25,701 bases of DNA from a virus, in the IMG/VR virus record IMGVR_UViG_3300033141_000944, positions 1-25,701 of that record; one strand, given 5' to 3'. Positions 7,436-24,890 of this stretch are shown in pieces. The position numbers were made by a program, and so were the translations under genes. How positions within the stretch are numbered: the stretch's first letter is position 1; the number at the start of each line of letters is the position of its first letter. The notes below the pieces were generated by a model. It was given only the letters and a program-made list of their open reading frames with translations. It did not search any database and was not told the origin of the DNA.

Positions 7436-8494
7436 TTACGTATTTACTACTTCAATAGGAGCGAAGAAGTTGATGCCATCGTAGTCTGATCCCGTTGGGA
7501 ACATATCGGCTGGCATAGAAACAACCTTAGTAGTTGAGTACAGGTTGAAACTCAAGTTCTCACAATCATCCTTGATCTTAAGGTCGTAACGTACGCCCGT
7601 CTTAGGTGAACGAACCACCATAGATACGTAGTTAGCAGATGCTTGGATGTCTTCAATCGCACCTTCTTTCCATGTTGAGTTGGTCCACTGAAGCAACTGA
7701 AGCGCTCCAGCTTGTACAGCCCATGAGAATTCGTTACCACCAGCGGCAGCAACAACACGCTTGTCCCATGCAGCGGCAAAACCGAATGCATCAACCATAG
7801 CGCCGATGTCTACACCTTGATTAGCGCAACATCCGTTCTCAACACGACGGAAGTACTTGTAGAGGTCTTGACCACCTACGATAAGCGTGTTAGGGTTGAA
7901 CAATGAAATGTTCTTAGCCAACTCAATGTCTTCCATTGCGTAAGGAGCAAGCTCGTCACTTGTACCAGAACGAAGTGTCTCTACTTCAAGAACGCCAGCG
8001 TTAACGTTTTGTACGTCAGCACCCCATGCGCCCAAGAGAGCAACCGCGTCGTTAGCAGTCTTTGTAGCTACTGCGCGGTCCATCGCGTTAATCATACGCT
8101 CGATCACTTCAAGGAAGTATGTAGCGTTGTCTTTACAGTTCTCACGGAGAGACTCTTCAGAAACCAACTCCTCTACATTGAGGCGGTCCGTTGGATCAAT
8201 AGTGTAAGTCTCGTTACAATCACCACGCTCTGTAGTAGCTACACAGCTAGTAGATGATTGAGTCGTTACTTGATCCTCTTGGATGAATTGGTTATACAAA
8301 AGCTCTACTTGGCGAACTTTGTTTTGACCTGGATGTACGAGTTGTTCTACTCCCCCTGTGTTGTTCACAATGAACTGAAGGAATGGCATTGGTTCGTCGA
8401 TCACACCGCGACCGCTGCCGTTTGTCGAAAATAAGTTGTCGAGACCGTCTTGAATATCAGGACATGCCGTCAACAACGTTGAAAGATATGACAT
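7436..8494 (-). CDS. Major capsid protein (352 aa)
   Basis: Assigned as the shell-forming protein from length and position: directly after a coiled-coil scaffold-like gene, in a portal - minor head - scaffold - capsid order. The sequence has a long N-terminal arm, a helix with EVIERMINAMDRAVATKTAND (read in two parts, about 126-148), and a core of alternating helices and strands. It contains several Cys pairs (for example GCC at about 220) and a beta-rich C-terminal part with DLKIKDDCENLSFNLYSTTKV split over about 300-325. I cannot assign an HK97-fold subfamily without a search. It has a 129-nt leader without a Shine-Dalgarno site but with hairpins, and a terminator-like hairpin follows. Confidence 0.8.
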   Translation of the reverse strand: MSYLSTLLTACPDIQDGLDNLFSTNGSGRGVIDEPMPFLQFIVNNTGGVEQLVHPGQNKVRQVELLYNQFIQEDQVTTQSSTSCVATTERGDCNETYTIDPTDRLNVEELVSEESLRENCKDNATYFLEVIERMINAMDRAVATKTANDAVALLGAWGADVQNVNAGVLEVETLRSGTSDELAPYAMEDIELAKNISLFNPNTLIVGGQDLYKYFRRVENGCCANQGVDIGAMVDAFGFAAAWDKRVVAAAGGNEFSWAVQAGALQLLQWTNSTWKEGAIEDIQASANYVSMVVRSPKTGVRYDLKIKDDCENLSFNLYSTTKVVSMPADMFPTGSDYDGINFFAPIEVVNT

Positions 8495-12793: not shown

Positions 12794-12876
12794 TACGCAG
12801 CTTTCAAATAAGGTAGAATAATTGTGCTTTGACAGCCTGACTTTTTGCCGCCACAGCGCATCTTAATAATCTTCAT
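12793..12876 (-). CDS. 27-residue micro-gene between methyltransferase and portal genes
   Basis: A short frame fills the gap between the two large genes exactly. Its ATG (12874-12876) overlaps the upstream TGA as ATGA, and its TAA (12793-12795) overlaps the portal ATG as TAATG. The peptide is basic, with two cysteines in MRCGGKKSGC, followed by a hydrophobic end (IILPYLKAA). Two exact coupling junctions make chance less likely, and it could also act only as a translational bridge. A missing partner Cys pair means that a complete zinc finger is not formed unless it dimerises or joins the portal zinc site. Confidence 0.6.
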   Translation of the reverse strand: MKIIKMRCGGKKSGCQSTIILPYLKAA

Positions 12877-14051
12877 ATCGTTGCAAAATTTTTCTGTTGT
12901 CCTTCGTGTACCGTCATCTTACGACCCAATGCCTTAGATAATTTCTTAGCCAATGACATTTCAGCGTCTCGGTTAACGTCGTCAAGTACAAATATAGCAT
13001 CCTTGTTAAATAGGTCTAGGTTCTCTATAAGTTTGCCTCGGTCGCAAATCCGAGCAGGAGGGCCGTCAATCAAATAAACATCTGCATTCTTAATGTCCTG
13101 CATCTTGTCTACGTCGTACCAGTCATCTACAATAGGGGCTAGTATGGTGTTTTTGTGTGATCTTAACCACTTAGGGTTATGCTCAATAGATGTTAGGTCA
13201 TAATTTTTAGCAATCTCACGAGACGCATTACCAGCACCCAGTTCAACTACCTTCCCTCCCTTAACGTTTCCAACTAACCATCGTAATAAATTCCACTCGA
13301 TAGATGCATCGCCTAGCTTGTTTCTGTCCGCACGTTGTGCTGGGAAGTGCTGTAGCTTAGGAATAGAATTGATAATATCGGTCTGTACCGAGTCGTCCTT
13401 AGCTACGCTTTTCCAAATAGCTAAATCCTGACTTCCTTTTTGCTCTATAATCCACGCTCTGTTACGTCTTAAAGTAATTTGCGGCAATGACAAATAGTGC
13501 AAGTGTCTAGCCATCTGTGGGTCTAGCATGTTCTTTTGATCCTTGAACAACTCCCAATCGAACTTCAATGTGTTGGTGTGGAACGCCATAGTTCCCGTTC
13601 CTAGCATGTGTACTGATTGAGTCTTATTCCATCGCTCGTAGCAGTAAAATATTTGGCGCGACTTGTCGCGGTAGTACGATTTAATAGGGTGTCTACGGTA
13701 GATTGTAGCGTGAACGCCTACAACAGCCTTACGATAGTGTAGGTCGATTTCGTTGGTCAAGTATGATACATAGTCCTTTGGATACTTTATATCGTCGTCC
13801 ATTGAAAAGTAATAGCCATCAACGTCCTTAGCTTTATAGAACTTGCCTAAGGCACGTAAATCTCCATCAGCTTCCGAGGATAAGATAGGCGTGATTTTCT
13901 CGTGTTTTAGAAACTCGGGAACCTTCTTGTAGTTGTTGAGGTATACGTAAATCTCGTCGAACTGGTCGATAATAGATTCAATGGTAACCTTTAGAAACTC
14001 CTCTCTCGCTGGATGCGAAGCTATACCGCCAATGACTTTACTTGTTCGCAT
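12873..14051 (-). CDS. Glycosyltransferase fused to a methyltransferase-like domain (392 aa)
   Basis: Residues 1-230 look like a GT-A fold glycosyltransferase: an N-terminal strand with conserved Ser-His-Pro-Arg-Glu near 12-17, and an acidic metal/nucleotide-sugar motif FSMDDDIKY (Asp85-87). The C-terminal part (about 250-392) looks like a Rossmann SAM-dependent methyltransferase: WNLLRWLVG then VVELGAGNAS (268-277), an acidic IEH after the second strand, VYLIDGPP (325-332) and FVLDDVNR (354-361). The order fits known glycan-modifying pairs, in which one protein adds and caps a sugar. The acceptor is unknown; a virion protein is plausible because the gene is embedded in the structural operon, and a host surface glycan is an alternative. 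It overlaps the upstream glycosyltransferase by 14 nt. Confidence 0.75.
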   Translation of the reverse strand: MRTSKVIGGIASHPAREEFLKVTIESIIDQFDEIYVYLNNYKKVPEFLKHEKITPILSSEADGDLRALGKFYKAKDVDGYYFSMDDDIKYPKDYVSYLTNEIDLHYRKAVVGVHATIYRRHPIKSYYRDKSRQIFYCYERWNKTQSVHMLGTGTMAFHTNTLKFDWELFKDQKNMLDPQMARHLHYLSLPQITLRRNRAWIIEQKGSQDLAIWKSVAKDDSVQTDIINSIPKLQHFPAQRADRNKLGDASIEWNLLRWLVGNVKGGKVVELGAGNASREIAKNYDLTSIEHNPKWLRSHKNTILAPIVDDWYDVDKMQDIKNADVYLIDGPPARICDRGKLIENLDLFNKDAIFVLDDVNRDAEMSLAKKLSKALGRKMTVHEGQQKNFATI

Positions 14052-14895
14052 GCTTGCTCTTTAGTAATGGGGCAACCTTATACATGTGTCGCGTGTTCAT
14101 TTGCTTGCAAATGTTTCGCATATGACGGTCGTACAACTCTTTATAGCGAACCTTAACAAGGCGCCGCCCTCCGTAGATAGCTAAAATATACCATCCCTCG
14201 AATACCTCGGAGATAGTCTCTTTGTTCTTCCATCCAAAATAGATATGTCTTCCACCATGAGCATCGGTGTTCATGCCTAGCTGCGCCATAGTGCCTGAGT
14301 AAATCAACTCATCTGGTATACTGCCTCCCCATCTCATTGTTAGCTTACGCTTGTCAAACTTCTTATCGTAGTTTTTAGCTACTTTATCGAAGAACGCTTT
14401 GGCCTCATCGCATTTTCTAACAAATACGTATGAGCTTTGAATTGCAGGCAATACCGCATCCTCTTCTAAGTCAAAGAACTCCCAAATATCATCATTGGTA
14501 GCCCAAATAGAGTAAGGTATGTCGTCTGATTTACCGCCTTTACCGTTGACTTGAGTATAGAACCAGCCTTCTTTGGCTGTTAACTCATCCATAAGCGGAT
14601 CGAGGGACTTTAATGCACATCCGTCAACATCTAAGTACAAGTTCTCCTCATAAGGCATGTATTTGTACATGTTGCACTTAATCTGTCCAGCATCTGTGTG
14701 TTTTTTTTGTAGAGGTACCAGCTTATCGAAAACGTCCCAATTCTCGGCTGGCATTGGCTTTAATTTGAAGTTATGAAGGTCATGCACCAAAGCTACCTTT
14801 AATTTAGAGGTAGCCTTGATGCTTAAAGCCATATTGTAGGCCATATTGTAATAGGCCCTGTCGCCAAAGGCGAAAAGTACAATTCCTTTGCTCAT
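14038..14895 (-). CDS. GT8-like glycosyltransferase (285 aa)
   Basis: Likely transfers a sugar from a nucleotide donor. The N-terminus has the GT-A start IVLFAFGDRAYYNMAYNMA (about 5-23), as in family GT8-type enzymes that begin with a Tyr/Ala-rich nucleotide pocket. The DxD motif lies in LYLDVDGCAL (Asp89, Asp91). Downstream are a Ser/Tyr-Val-Phe block (SSYVFVRKC) and a Gly/His pair (AHGGRHIYFGW), which often bind donor or metal. It starts on the stop of the tail tube gene (ATAATG-type junction) and is co-translated with the GT/methyltransferase fusion. The two together form a small glycosylation cassette. Confidence 0.75.
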   Translation of the reverse strand: MSKGIVLFAFGDRAYYNMAYNMALSIKATSKLKVALVHDLHNFKLKPMPAENWDVFDKLVPLQKKHTDAGQIKCNMYKYMPYEENLYLDVDGCALKSLDPLMDELTAKEGWFYTQVNGKGGKSDDIPYSIWATNDDIWEFFDLEEDAVLPAIQSSYVFVRKCDEAKAFFDKVAKNYDKKFDKRKLTMRWGGSIPDELIYSGTMAQLGMNTDAHGGRHIYFGWKNKETISEVFEGWYILAIYGGRRLVKVRYKELYDRHMRNICKQMNTRHMYKVAPLLKSKHANK

Positions 14896-15437
14896 TATTG
14901 ACCGAAAATTCCAGCAGGTGCTGCGTGTAAGGTCGGATCAGTTTTTGATCTCCAACGCAATTCGCCCTCCCATTTTGACTGCTCGTTTTCTACGTCGTTA
15001 AACCCGCCAATAAGGCGTGAGTTACCTTGAATGAACTTTACTTGATCCGATTCGCAGTAGTACAACAATGCTCCACCGAACACTTTTCCGTTAGAGCTAT
15101 TCATTGCATTGTACGCATCGATGTTCAACGCATTAACGTTTCCATCAATCCAAGATATAGTACGATCATAGTTAGATACAGCGTCAGTTTCGCCTGCAAC
15201 CAAAGAAGCCTGTGAAATCTCACTAGGAGCATTCACAAGTACCTTAAGGCTTTTGTACAATACCGCGTCGCCAGCAGCAAGTAGAGCATTAATCTCCGTA
15301 TCGTCTGAAGGGTCTGTTGGTGTTGCACCACATTTGAATAGCATGACTTCAGGAACTACCCCAGTGAGAGGGTCACAGTCGATATTCAACACCTGCTCTT
15401 CGAGGTCGTCACACGTATAGCATGATTCGCATCCCAT
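14895..15437 (-). CDS. Putative tail tube (major tail) protein (180 aa)
   Basis: Beta-rich and about the usual length for a siphovirus tail tube protein. It begins with a Cys-rich stretch (Cys3, Cys6, Cys9), then strands with VLYKSLKVLVNAPSEIS, a helix near NALNIDAYNAMN, and alternating strands to the C-terminus. Strong evidence for an abundant protein comes from its context: its own promoter with shared control block and a long hairpin leader, similar to the capsid leader. The tube assignment is inferred from size, secondary-structure impression and expression signals; no sequence motif proves it. A head-decoration role is an alternative. Confidence 0.6.
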   Translation of the reverse strand: MGCESCYTCDDLEEQVLNIDCDPLTGVVPEVMLFKCGATPTDPSDDTEINALLAAGDAVLYKSLKVLVNAPSEISQASLVAGETDAVSNYDRTISWIDGNVNALNIDAYNAMNSSNGKVFGGALLYYCESDQVKFIQGNSRLIGGFNDVENEQSKWEGELRWRSKTDPTLHAAPAGIFGQ

Positions 15438-23238: not shown

Positions 23239-23241
23239 CGT

Positions 23242-23280
23242 TAGGGTTTAGCCTGTTGCTTCGGTGGCTGAACTCGCCCT
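23242..23280 (-). other. Hairpin-forming tape measure leader
   Basis: The 65-bp gap before the tape measure holds AGGG (23243-23246) that can pair with CCCT (23277-23280). Inside it, AGCC (23250-23253) can pair with GGCT (23266-23269). The loop contains the sequence complementary to the capsid 3' region. No Bacteroidota promoter was found in this gap. Confidence 0.45.
23253..23270 (-). repeat. 18-nt inverted repeat, copy B (tape measure leader)
   Basis: The minus-strand RNA reads CAGCCACCGAAGCAACAG, fully complementary to the RNA from 7409-7426. It lies 15-32 nt upstream of the tape measure ATG, the region a ribosome would load on. Confidence 0.8.
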
Positions 23281-23303: not shown

Positions 23304-23888
23304 TTAGTTATGCGCTAAGATAGCATTTATTTGTGTGTTAGTCAATTTGCTGCGTTTCTGTACCTCAGCAAGTAATTCTCCCGATATGCCTGAGTCGTAA
23401 AATATACGGTACTCTGGCAGTCTAATTAACTGTTCTGGATTGCTATTTAGTATCTCTAGAAGGTGGTCTACTTTTTTGGCGTGTGTTGCCTTGTCGATCT
23501 TGGACGGGTCTTCATCTTCTAACACCAAGGTCGTAGCCAACATGTCTAGTATAACGTTAATGTTTGGTTCACTTGCACGCTCTTGAAGTTCAAACAGCAA
23601 AGCAAAGACAACTTGAAGCTGTATATTTTTCTTCTTTTTGTTCGCTAACTCAATGCCGTACTTTAAGTTATCAACAATCTTATCAAGTGTCGCGCTGTAG
23701 TCCTCGTGGCTCAAGCCGCTTACTAATAGCTGATAATTTCTTTGAATGCGTGCGTGTCGAATTGGAGGTGGTTTGTCTTTGAATCCGTAGTATTTAGTAT
23801 TGTCGTTACTGATAAACCTAAGTGCCAAGTCTCTCGACGAGTGGCGCGATAGTATCGATAAAAGGTATTTAAGTAGCTTGGTTTTCAT
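23304..23888 (-). CDS. Hypothetical tail-module protein (194 aa)
   Basis: Basic, helical N-terminus (KTKLLKYLLSILSRHSSRDLALRF, about 2-25), then a run of helices rich in Leu/Ile and Lys. It has no signal peptide or metal motif. Its ATG (23886-23888) overlaps the stop of the -1 frame of the upstream gene as ATGA, which shows that the frameshift frame, not the zero frame, is its natural upstream neighbour. Placed between the chaperone-like gene and the tape measure, it is probably a further tail-assembly factor. No family is recognised. Confidence 0.75.
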   Translation of the reverse strand: MKTKLLKYLLSILSRHSSRDLALRFISNDNTKYYGFKDKPPPIRHARIQRNYQLLVSGLSHEDYSATLDKIVDNLKYGIELANKKKKNIQLQVVFALLFELQERASEPNINVILDMLATTLVLEDEDPSKIDKATHAKKVDHLLEILNSNPEQLIRLPEYRIFYDSGISGELLAEVQKRSKLTNTQINAILAHN

Positions 23889-24603
23889 CTTCTGCTTCTC
23901 AGTTTAGCTTTCATACGGGCCTCACGCTCCTTGTCTCTTACGCACTTTGAAACAAATGACTTAACCCTAAGGGTGTATTCCCTAATAGGCATCTGTATCA
24001 ATCGCTCGTACTGATCTAGGTCTTCTTGTACTATAGCCATATTTAGGCTAGTATCCGCGTCTATGTTGGCGAGACGCGACGCCCTAACATTAAATCTATC
24101 CGCTGCCTGCTTATCTCCACCTGATCCAAGTTTCTCAAGATGTTTTGAAATTTTTGCTTCGTATGTGGTGGTTTGCTTAACAATGGCATTAAAGGTTTCA
24201 AGGCAAAAAAAAACTGCATGTCTTCCGTCATGTCCTTTTCGATCATCTCGACCTTTTCGTCTTGTATCTCTTTGTGGAAGCCTAACGGGTTTTCATCCTC
24301 CCTAACTATCGAAACGGCCATCATTTGATACACTAATTGTGGTCTAATGGTGTTTACCCTAAACTTTAGCTCGTTCATTACCTTAGAGACGGTGGTTAAG
24401 CCTTTAACGCCTTTCGTCAGTGAAGCTGCGCCGTGATCTATTAAACCTAAATACTCTGCCTCACTTTGGCCTATCTGTAGCCACCTGTGAAATTCACGTT
24501 GTTGCTGGTAGCGCACAAAAGGCATTGTTCCAGATGCAAACGTGTAGTACTTGCGTCCCTTTTTGTCGGTGAACTTGTGGTATAGGTTCTCGAATCCTTT
24601 CAT
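23885..24603 (-). CDS. Tail assembly chaperone fusion made by -1 frameshift (239 aa)
   Basis: Residues 1-133 are shared with the zero-frame product. At the T9 run (24205-24213) a one-base backward slip opens a 107-codon frame, ending in TGA 23885-23887. The added 106 residues read as a genuine soluble protein: KQTTTYEAKISKHLEKLGSG, a helix with DKQAADRFNVRASRLANIDA, then basic helices ending KAKLRSRR. In lambda, gpG and gpGT arise the same way just before the tape measure gene and act as tail assembly chaperones. Here the same geometry and position occur one gene earlier. A T8/T10 sequencing error, making one continuous gene, is the alternative explanation. Confidence 0.7.
24061..24603 (-). 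CDS. Tail assembly chaperone, zero-frame product (180 aa)
   Basis: The N-terminal domain (about 1-130) has YYTFASGTMPFVRYQQQREFH split at about 19-40, then a helix with SEAEYLGLID and a cluster of basic and hydrophobic helices. I associate this pattern with Bacteroidota phage proteins that lie just before the tape measure. After three phenylalanines (131-133) the zero frame adds 47 residues that are Pro/Leu/Arg-rich and less protein-like than the -1 frame. The start at 24603 overlaps the stop of the upstream gene. Both products probably exist if the slip is programmed. Confidence 0.65.
   Translation of the reverse strand: MKGFENLYHKFTDKKGRKYYTFASGTMPFVRYQQQREFHRWLQIGQSEAEYLGLIDHGAASLTKGVKGLTTVSKVMNELKFRVNTIRPQLVYQMMAVSIVREDENPLGFHKEIQDEKVEMIEKDMTEDMQFFFALKPLMPLLSKPPHTKQKFQNILRNLDQVEISRQRIDLMLGRRVSPT
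24205..24213 (-). promoter_or_regulatory. T9 slippery site for -1 frameshifting
   Basis: On the minus strand the zero-frame codons are CAG TTT TTT TTT GCC. This contains the standard slippery heptamer T_TTT_TTT in frame. No clear downstream pseudoknot or strong stem was found by eye. Confidence 0.7.
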
Positions 24604-24890
24604 TAGGCTAGTTTACAAATGTTTTTGAACGATTCACGCGCCTCTTGTAAGCTCTCTATGGGTTCTTCTGGTATGTGTAGTTGATGAACAAGTAGGTGTA
24701 TTACTCCTTTGTCGCTTAGTGTGGATTCATTGCCCGATTCTTTAAGGTAACATATCACACATGCTGTGTGCAGTATTTCGGGTAGGTTTTTTCTAAACTC
24801 TTCGTCTGTGTATAACAGATATTTGTGATACAACTCCCTTAGTTCTTTATAAGATAGGTCGTACTTAGTTCCTGAGACTACGTATTGCAT
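24603..24890 (-). CDS. Small tail-module protein (95 aa)
   Basis: Predicted mostly helical and acidic (YDLSYKELRELYHKYLLYTDEEF split at about 10-32), with a CVICYLK segment about 43-49. It could be a small adaptor or chaperone of the tail-assembly set. Both junctions overlap: the start lies on the upstream stop at 24890 and the stop lies on the downstream ATG at 24603. No family is recognised. Confidence 0.75.
   Translation of the reverse strand: MQYVVSGTKYDLSYKELRELYHKYLLYTDEEFRKNLPEILHTACVICYLKESGNESTLSDKGVIHLLVHQLHIPEEPIESLQEARESFKNICKLA

Follow-up and report, generated by a model that had tools for sequence, protein, structure and literature searches.

A two-frame gene ahead of the tape measure

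The window (the whole stretch of viral DNA analysed here, that is, all 25,701 bases of record IMGVR_UViG_3300033141_000944) carries on its minus strand a gene in which a run of nine T residues (T9) holds an in-frame T_TTT_TTT heptamer, a slippery site of the X_XXY_YYZ type that leads into an open −1 frame (Table 1). The zero-frame codons at the run are GAC ATG CAG TTT TTT TTT GCC, and the slip site takes up codons 131–133 of the zero-frame open reading frame (ORF; 24603 to 24061). A shift at this point would join 133 zero-frame residues to the 106 codons that run from 24205 to a stop at 23885, giving a fused protein of 239 amino acids (aa). The TGA that ends the −1 frame overlaps the ATG (23888) of the following gene as ATGA, and a gap of 172 bp separates the zero-frame stop from that same ATG. 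These features, from the coordinates of the run to the length of the gap, had been listed in a preliminary description of this DNA and agree with our rereading of the sequence and translation of the ORFs.

That description also placed the gene just upstream of the tape measure. The gene does lie in the tail operon shortly before the tape measure, two genes upstream of it, but a 194-aa gene stands in between. A point that the description missed is that this intervening gene is paralogous to the zero-frame product, as seen in the window (Table 1) and again in the related contig L016 (BLASTP E = 2e-6), with a profile–profile E-value of 7e-10; these E-values each refer to a single comparison. The order of frameshift gene followed by paralogue recurs in L016 and in a second related contig, L009. 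Between the paralogue and the tape measure, the short leader at 23239–23275 includes a stretch, AGCCACCGAAGCAACAGGCTAA, that is identical in L009 and could form a small hairpin.

Table 1. Coordinates of the features at the locus, with the evidence for each (substitution counts: window against L009, by codon position 1/2/3)
Feature	Coordinates	Strand	Evidence
Zero-frame product, 180 aa, 'G-like'	24061..24603	−	ORF; 24/10/79 substitutions before the slip (zero frame); paralogy to 194-aa neighbour
T_TTT_TTT slip heptamer	24205..24211, inside T9 24205–24213	−	Identical T9 in L002, L003, L009 and L016; no other zero-frame heptamer within the overlap
'T-like' extension in the −1 frame, 106 aa; helical by prediction, C terminus basic	23885..24205	−	9/7/24 substitutions (−1 frame) and 8 aa changes against ~23 expected, both past the zero-frame stop; weak phrog_18291 match
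Dual-coding overlap, 47 zero-frame codons also read in the −1 frame	24064..24204	−	No wobble bias; no stops
194-aa gene separating frameshift gene and tape measure, paralogous to the zero-frame product	23304..23888	−	BLASTP E = 8e-9; profile–profile probability 96.5%
Tail length tape measure protein, 1034 aa	20134..23238	−	phrog_28, E = 9e-35; PF10145, E = 5e-23

Conservation of the slip site and of both frames

About 1.2 runs of nine T residues are expected in a shuffled window, so the run by itself proves nothing; what rises above chance is its conservation, in exact length, phase and surrounding architecture, across lineages. Five contigs carry an exact T9 in the same phase: the window, two that are ~99.5% identical (L002 and L003, the latter with 28 substitutions in 5.6 kb), L009 and L016. 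In L009, where the fused protein is 77% and the tape measure 65% identical at the amino acid level, the run, the −1 ORF (105 aa) and the overlapping start (there TTGA) are all kept. In L016, at 60% amino acid identity, eight codons have been inserted before the slip, yet T9, the −1 ORF (103 aa) and ATGA persist. The zero-frame stop and the −1 ORF are present in all of these relatives, at ~99.5%, 77% and 60% identity, and every lineage has a −1 stop that overlaps the start of the following gene.

Across the three lineages represented by the window, L009 and L016, the zero-frame product measures 180, 186 and 192 aa, and the distance from the slip to the zero-frame stop (142–160 nt) is longer than usual. 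In each of them the stretch from the opening of the −1 frame to the zero-frame stop contains no zero-frame X_XXY_YYZ heptamer other than that of T9, and in L016 the −1 frame opens merely 12 nt before the slip.

Substitutions between the window and L009 concentrate at third positions of zero-frame codons before the slip and at third positions of −1 codons after the zero-frame stop (beyond −1 nucleotide 180), and in the overlap show a wobble excess in neither frame (counts in Table 1). Against L016, the corresponding counts by codon position are 38/17/66 before the slip and 14/15/32 after the zero-frame stop. In the stretch tested past that stop, random substitutions should change ~23 residues of the −1 frame; 8 had changed, and none of 5,000 simulations gave so low a number. 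Within the overlap, which is free of stops in both frames in the three lineages, zero-frame changes fall below expectation in all three comparisons (P = 0.009, 0.0006 and 0.002), and −1 changes do so for the window against L009 (P = 0.002), not against L016. Constraint shifts along this stretch: the zero frame is the stricter one close to the slip, where FFFALKPLMPL is invariant, and the −1 frame becomes the stricter one toward the zero-frame stop. Synonymous recoding of the zero frame leaves the −1 frame open in 3%, 2% and 6% of trials for the three lineages (P = 0.03, 0.02 and 0.06), values that are not to be multiplied because the lineages are related.

The zero frame shows codon-position bias upstream of the slip, the −1 frame shows it past the stop, and both frames are constrained in between, which indicates that the predicted 180-aa and 239-aa products are both under selection. 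By this pattern of conservation the gene is a real, conserved two-product frameshift gene. The −1 recoding put forward in the preliminary description is supported by the homologues with exact T9, by the selection on both frames and by the lack of an in-frame start for a separate −1 part; the observations it had named as contrary did not appear, as no copy has T8 or T10 and no homologue encodes an unshifted 239-aa protein. Termination in the zero frame does occur in the homologues, but together with the conserved −1 extension, and so does not contradict the fusion.

How the shift may arise and what the products may do

By analogy with other tailed phages (PMC5009743), the shift is most likely ribosomal, the ribosome slipping back one base on U_UUU_UUU. 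Most rounds of translation would then yield the 180-aa protein, and a minority of events at T9 would yield the 239-aa protein with the same N-terminal part followed by a 106-aa helical and basic C-terminal extension; we infer both the part of the ribosome, as opposed to the polymerase, and this ratio of products.

A less probable but serious alternative is that RNA polymerase adds one or more U at T9, so that a fraction of mRNAs would encode the fusion by ordinary translation, with the products and their role unchanged. T9 would suit this mechanism equally well: bacterial polymerase is known to slip where nine A or T residues stand in a row (PMC5009743), and every copy has a run of just this length. 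The usual ribosomal stimulators are, moreover, missing: downstream of T9 we found no RNA fold better than those of shuffled sequences, a Shine–Dalgarno-like sequence precedes the start of 1 of the 25 genes of the window, and Bacteroidia ribosomes ignore such signals (PMC9976891). Against this, T9 follows automatically once three Phe codons and T_TTT_TTT are retained and therefore gives no preference to polymerase slippage, and a ribosomal shift performs the same task in other phages. A further argument comes from the more distant contig L028 (IMGVR_UViG_3300033417_000026), whose tape measure domain is 52% identical. There, terL is followed by a 205-aa gene, an 85-codon −1 ORF reached via a canonical C_CCA_AAA site and, directly, the tape measure. 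This resembles the window in its sequence of terminase, two-frame gene and tape measure and in an overlapping −1 ORF with a basic end, and differs in the type of site, its position near the 3′ end and the absence of a paralogue. C_CCA_AAA suits the ribosome, not the polymerase, and a like layout with another type of site points to selection for the shift rather than for a T run. Homology between the 205-aa gene and that of the window is weakly suggested (probability 26%; no HMM match).

As to role, we favour, with a probability of roughly 0.78, a single gene whose two products, made by −1 slippage, both serve as tail assembly chaperones, much as lambda gpG and gpGT do. On this view the region common to both proteins would coat the tape measure protein and the rarer extension would recruit the tail tube subunit; the 194-aa paralogue probably acts on the same tape measure without such an extension. 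This role is inferred from architecture and position. The earlier suggestion of a lambda G/GT-like gene is well supported in the sense of 'works like', given the slip heptamer, the selection on both products and the nearby tape measure. It is not supported as sequence homology: no chaperone family matched, and just upstream no tail tube gene was found.

Neither Pfam, PHROGs nor NCBIfam yielded a match to chaperone families. For the 106-residue −1 product, a search proposed at the outset, there was no match among 50,697 phage records, in which the fused and neighbouring proteins likewise found none, and a weak match to phrog_18291 (E = 4e-4), a family whose function is not known. A sequence search of solved structures returned nothing, a search for folds similar to the zero-frame model (pLDDT 73) produced nothing confident, with the name tail assembly chaperone on four low-scoring BFVD rows, and scans of genome collections gave nothing useful. 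Taken together, the sequence and fold results speak neither for nor against a chaperone role. The −1 part modelled alone is helical, at low confidence (pLDDT 62).

The lack of homology or fold match to known chaperones and of an adjacent tail tube gene would also suit a real frameshift gene with some other tail role, such as a baseplate or tail-completion protein made in two forms. We consider this improbable, since the place before the tape measure, the predicted helical folds, the two products made by slipping and the absence of a match to structural-protein families together fit a chaperone best.

Two remaining readings would dispense with the frameshift. In the first, the −1 part is a separate 51-aa gene starting at an ATG (24040) just after the zero-frame stop. 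All three lineages do have an in-frame ATG at −1 codon 55 (0-based), which lies between a few and ~20 nt past that stop, and coupling of this sort is common in phages. However, the codons before it tell otherwise: over −1 codons 42–55 the −1 frame has changed 2 of 14 residues and the zero frame 8 of 14, which argues that this stretch is translated in the −1 frame. Moreover, no upstream start codon is common to the lineages, the window has no ATG, GTG or TTG in the −1 frame before 24040, and a T9 together with a −1 frame held open across 47–53 codons would have no purpose. Conservation upstream of the ATG, with the missing start codons, rules out separate initiation, which we regard as very improbable. 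A homopolymer error of sequencing or assembly that broke one ordinary 239-aa gene, as a nine-base run at the break in a metagenome contig might suggest, is barely credible and is ruled out by the presence of exactly nine T residues in all five contigs, two of them from lineages only 77% and 60% identical, and by a zero-frame tail that is itself selected and aligns with the C terminus of the paralogue.

In the joint alignment, the post-slip zero-frame residues ALKPLMPLF lie opposite the C-terminal LPEYRIFYDSG of the paralogue, a hint, though no proof, that the zero-frame tail came first and that the −1 extension was superimposed on it. We tentatively put forward, as a model that is possible rather than probable, a duplicated chaperone pair serving one tape measure: one copy would carry a −1 extension, retained or newly acquired, that is overprinted on the C terminus of that copy, and the other would be a plain zero-frame protein, the slip would occur without a Shine–Dalgarno stimulator or RNA structure, and a set of three proteins (180, 239 and 194 aa) would replace the two-protein G/GT.

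Genomic setting and comparison with known systems

In related contigs the genes follow the order terS, terL, small genes, frameshift gene, paralogue, tape measure, other tail genes, and portal and head genes. The frameshift gene of the window is preceded by terL and four small genes of no assigned function, and none of the genes from terminase to tape measure was recognised as encoding a tail tube protein; a candidate picked by eye lies far downstream, at 14895–15437. This 180-aa candidate is 100% identical to L037:6416–6958, on a contig where the tape measure shows just 65% identity, a contrast that we read as strong mosaicism. Between the candidate and the portal, at 12873–14895, the structural module includes two transferase-like genes, one of them glycosyltransferase-like.

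The 95-aa gene directly before the frameshift gene (24603–24890) matches phrog_7083 (E = 1.7e-20), also present in Pseudomonas Pakpunavirus phages, where it lies outside the tail operon. In L016 the gene directly ahead of the frameshift gene encodes a 290-aa protein (L016:5132–6004) that looks, by eye, similar to the product of 7436–8494 in the window, a candidate major capsid protein. Two contigs, ~99.5% identical over the tail genes, differ in the large terminase genes upstream (L005:3775–5097 and L006:787–2115), which are similar only in their C-terminal half; we read this difference as recombination within the terminase gene. In Flavobacterium phage FCV-1 (L004:4247–4910), the tape measure is preceded by a 138-aa gene, after which an unannotated −1 ORF of ~70 codons extends into a gap of 247 nt; with C_AAA_AAA_G lying where the two overlap, this is possibly another frameshift that has gone unannotated.

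The scarcity of Shine–Dalgarno-like sequences in the window fits the Bacteroidota host assumed in the preliminary description (PMC9976891, PMC6847099), without proving it. Our literature search found no report of this frameshift in Bacteroides or Flavobacterium phages, which does not establish that none exists.

The slip site of lambda is G_GGA_AAG, and phage P2 makes its E and E+E′ proteins by a −1 frameshift at T_TTT_TTG. In the lambda system (Levin 1993; Xu 2004, 2013, 2014, reviewed in PMC5009743, which also mentions P2), a short zero-frame product and a rarer −1 fusion are encoded ahead of the tape measure. The gene described here shares with gpG/gpGT the slippery heptamer, the two products and the position in the tail operon before the tape measure. 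It differs in its T_TTT_TTT site within T9, in a zero frame that extends well beyond the slip, in the paralogue that separates it from the tape measure and in lacking a recognised tail tube gene just upstream, and no sequence similarity was found. With P2 E/E+E′ it shares a T-rich site and the place in a tail operon before the tape measure; the exact site differs, the sequences are unrelated as far as tested, and P2 has no paralogue in between.

For two data sets used to train or test a current predictor, the mean slip-to-stop distance is 26 nt in one and 36 nt in the other (PMC10885494). The 142–160 nt observed here are far above these averages, and genes of this kind will therefore probably be overlooked by gene callers and recoding predictors. 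The mechanism is a known one, and the gene, in a family that databases do not recognise, is a new, unannotated variant marked by its paralogue and its unusually long dual-coding overlap. It would extend G/GT-type recoding to a phage family absent from libraries and probably infecting Bacteroidota, and would offer a test case for slipping without the Shine–Dalgarno signals that stimulate many bacterial frameshifts. The paralogue beside the frameshift gene may provide a way to separate the parts of a chaperone needed for the tape measure from those needed for the tube.
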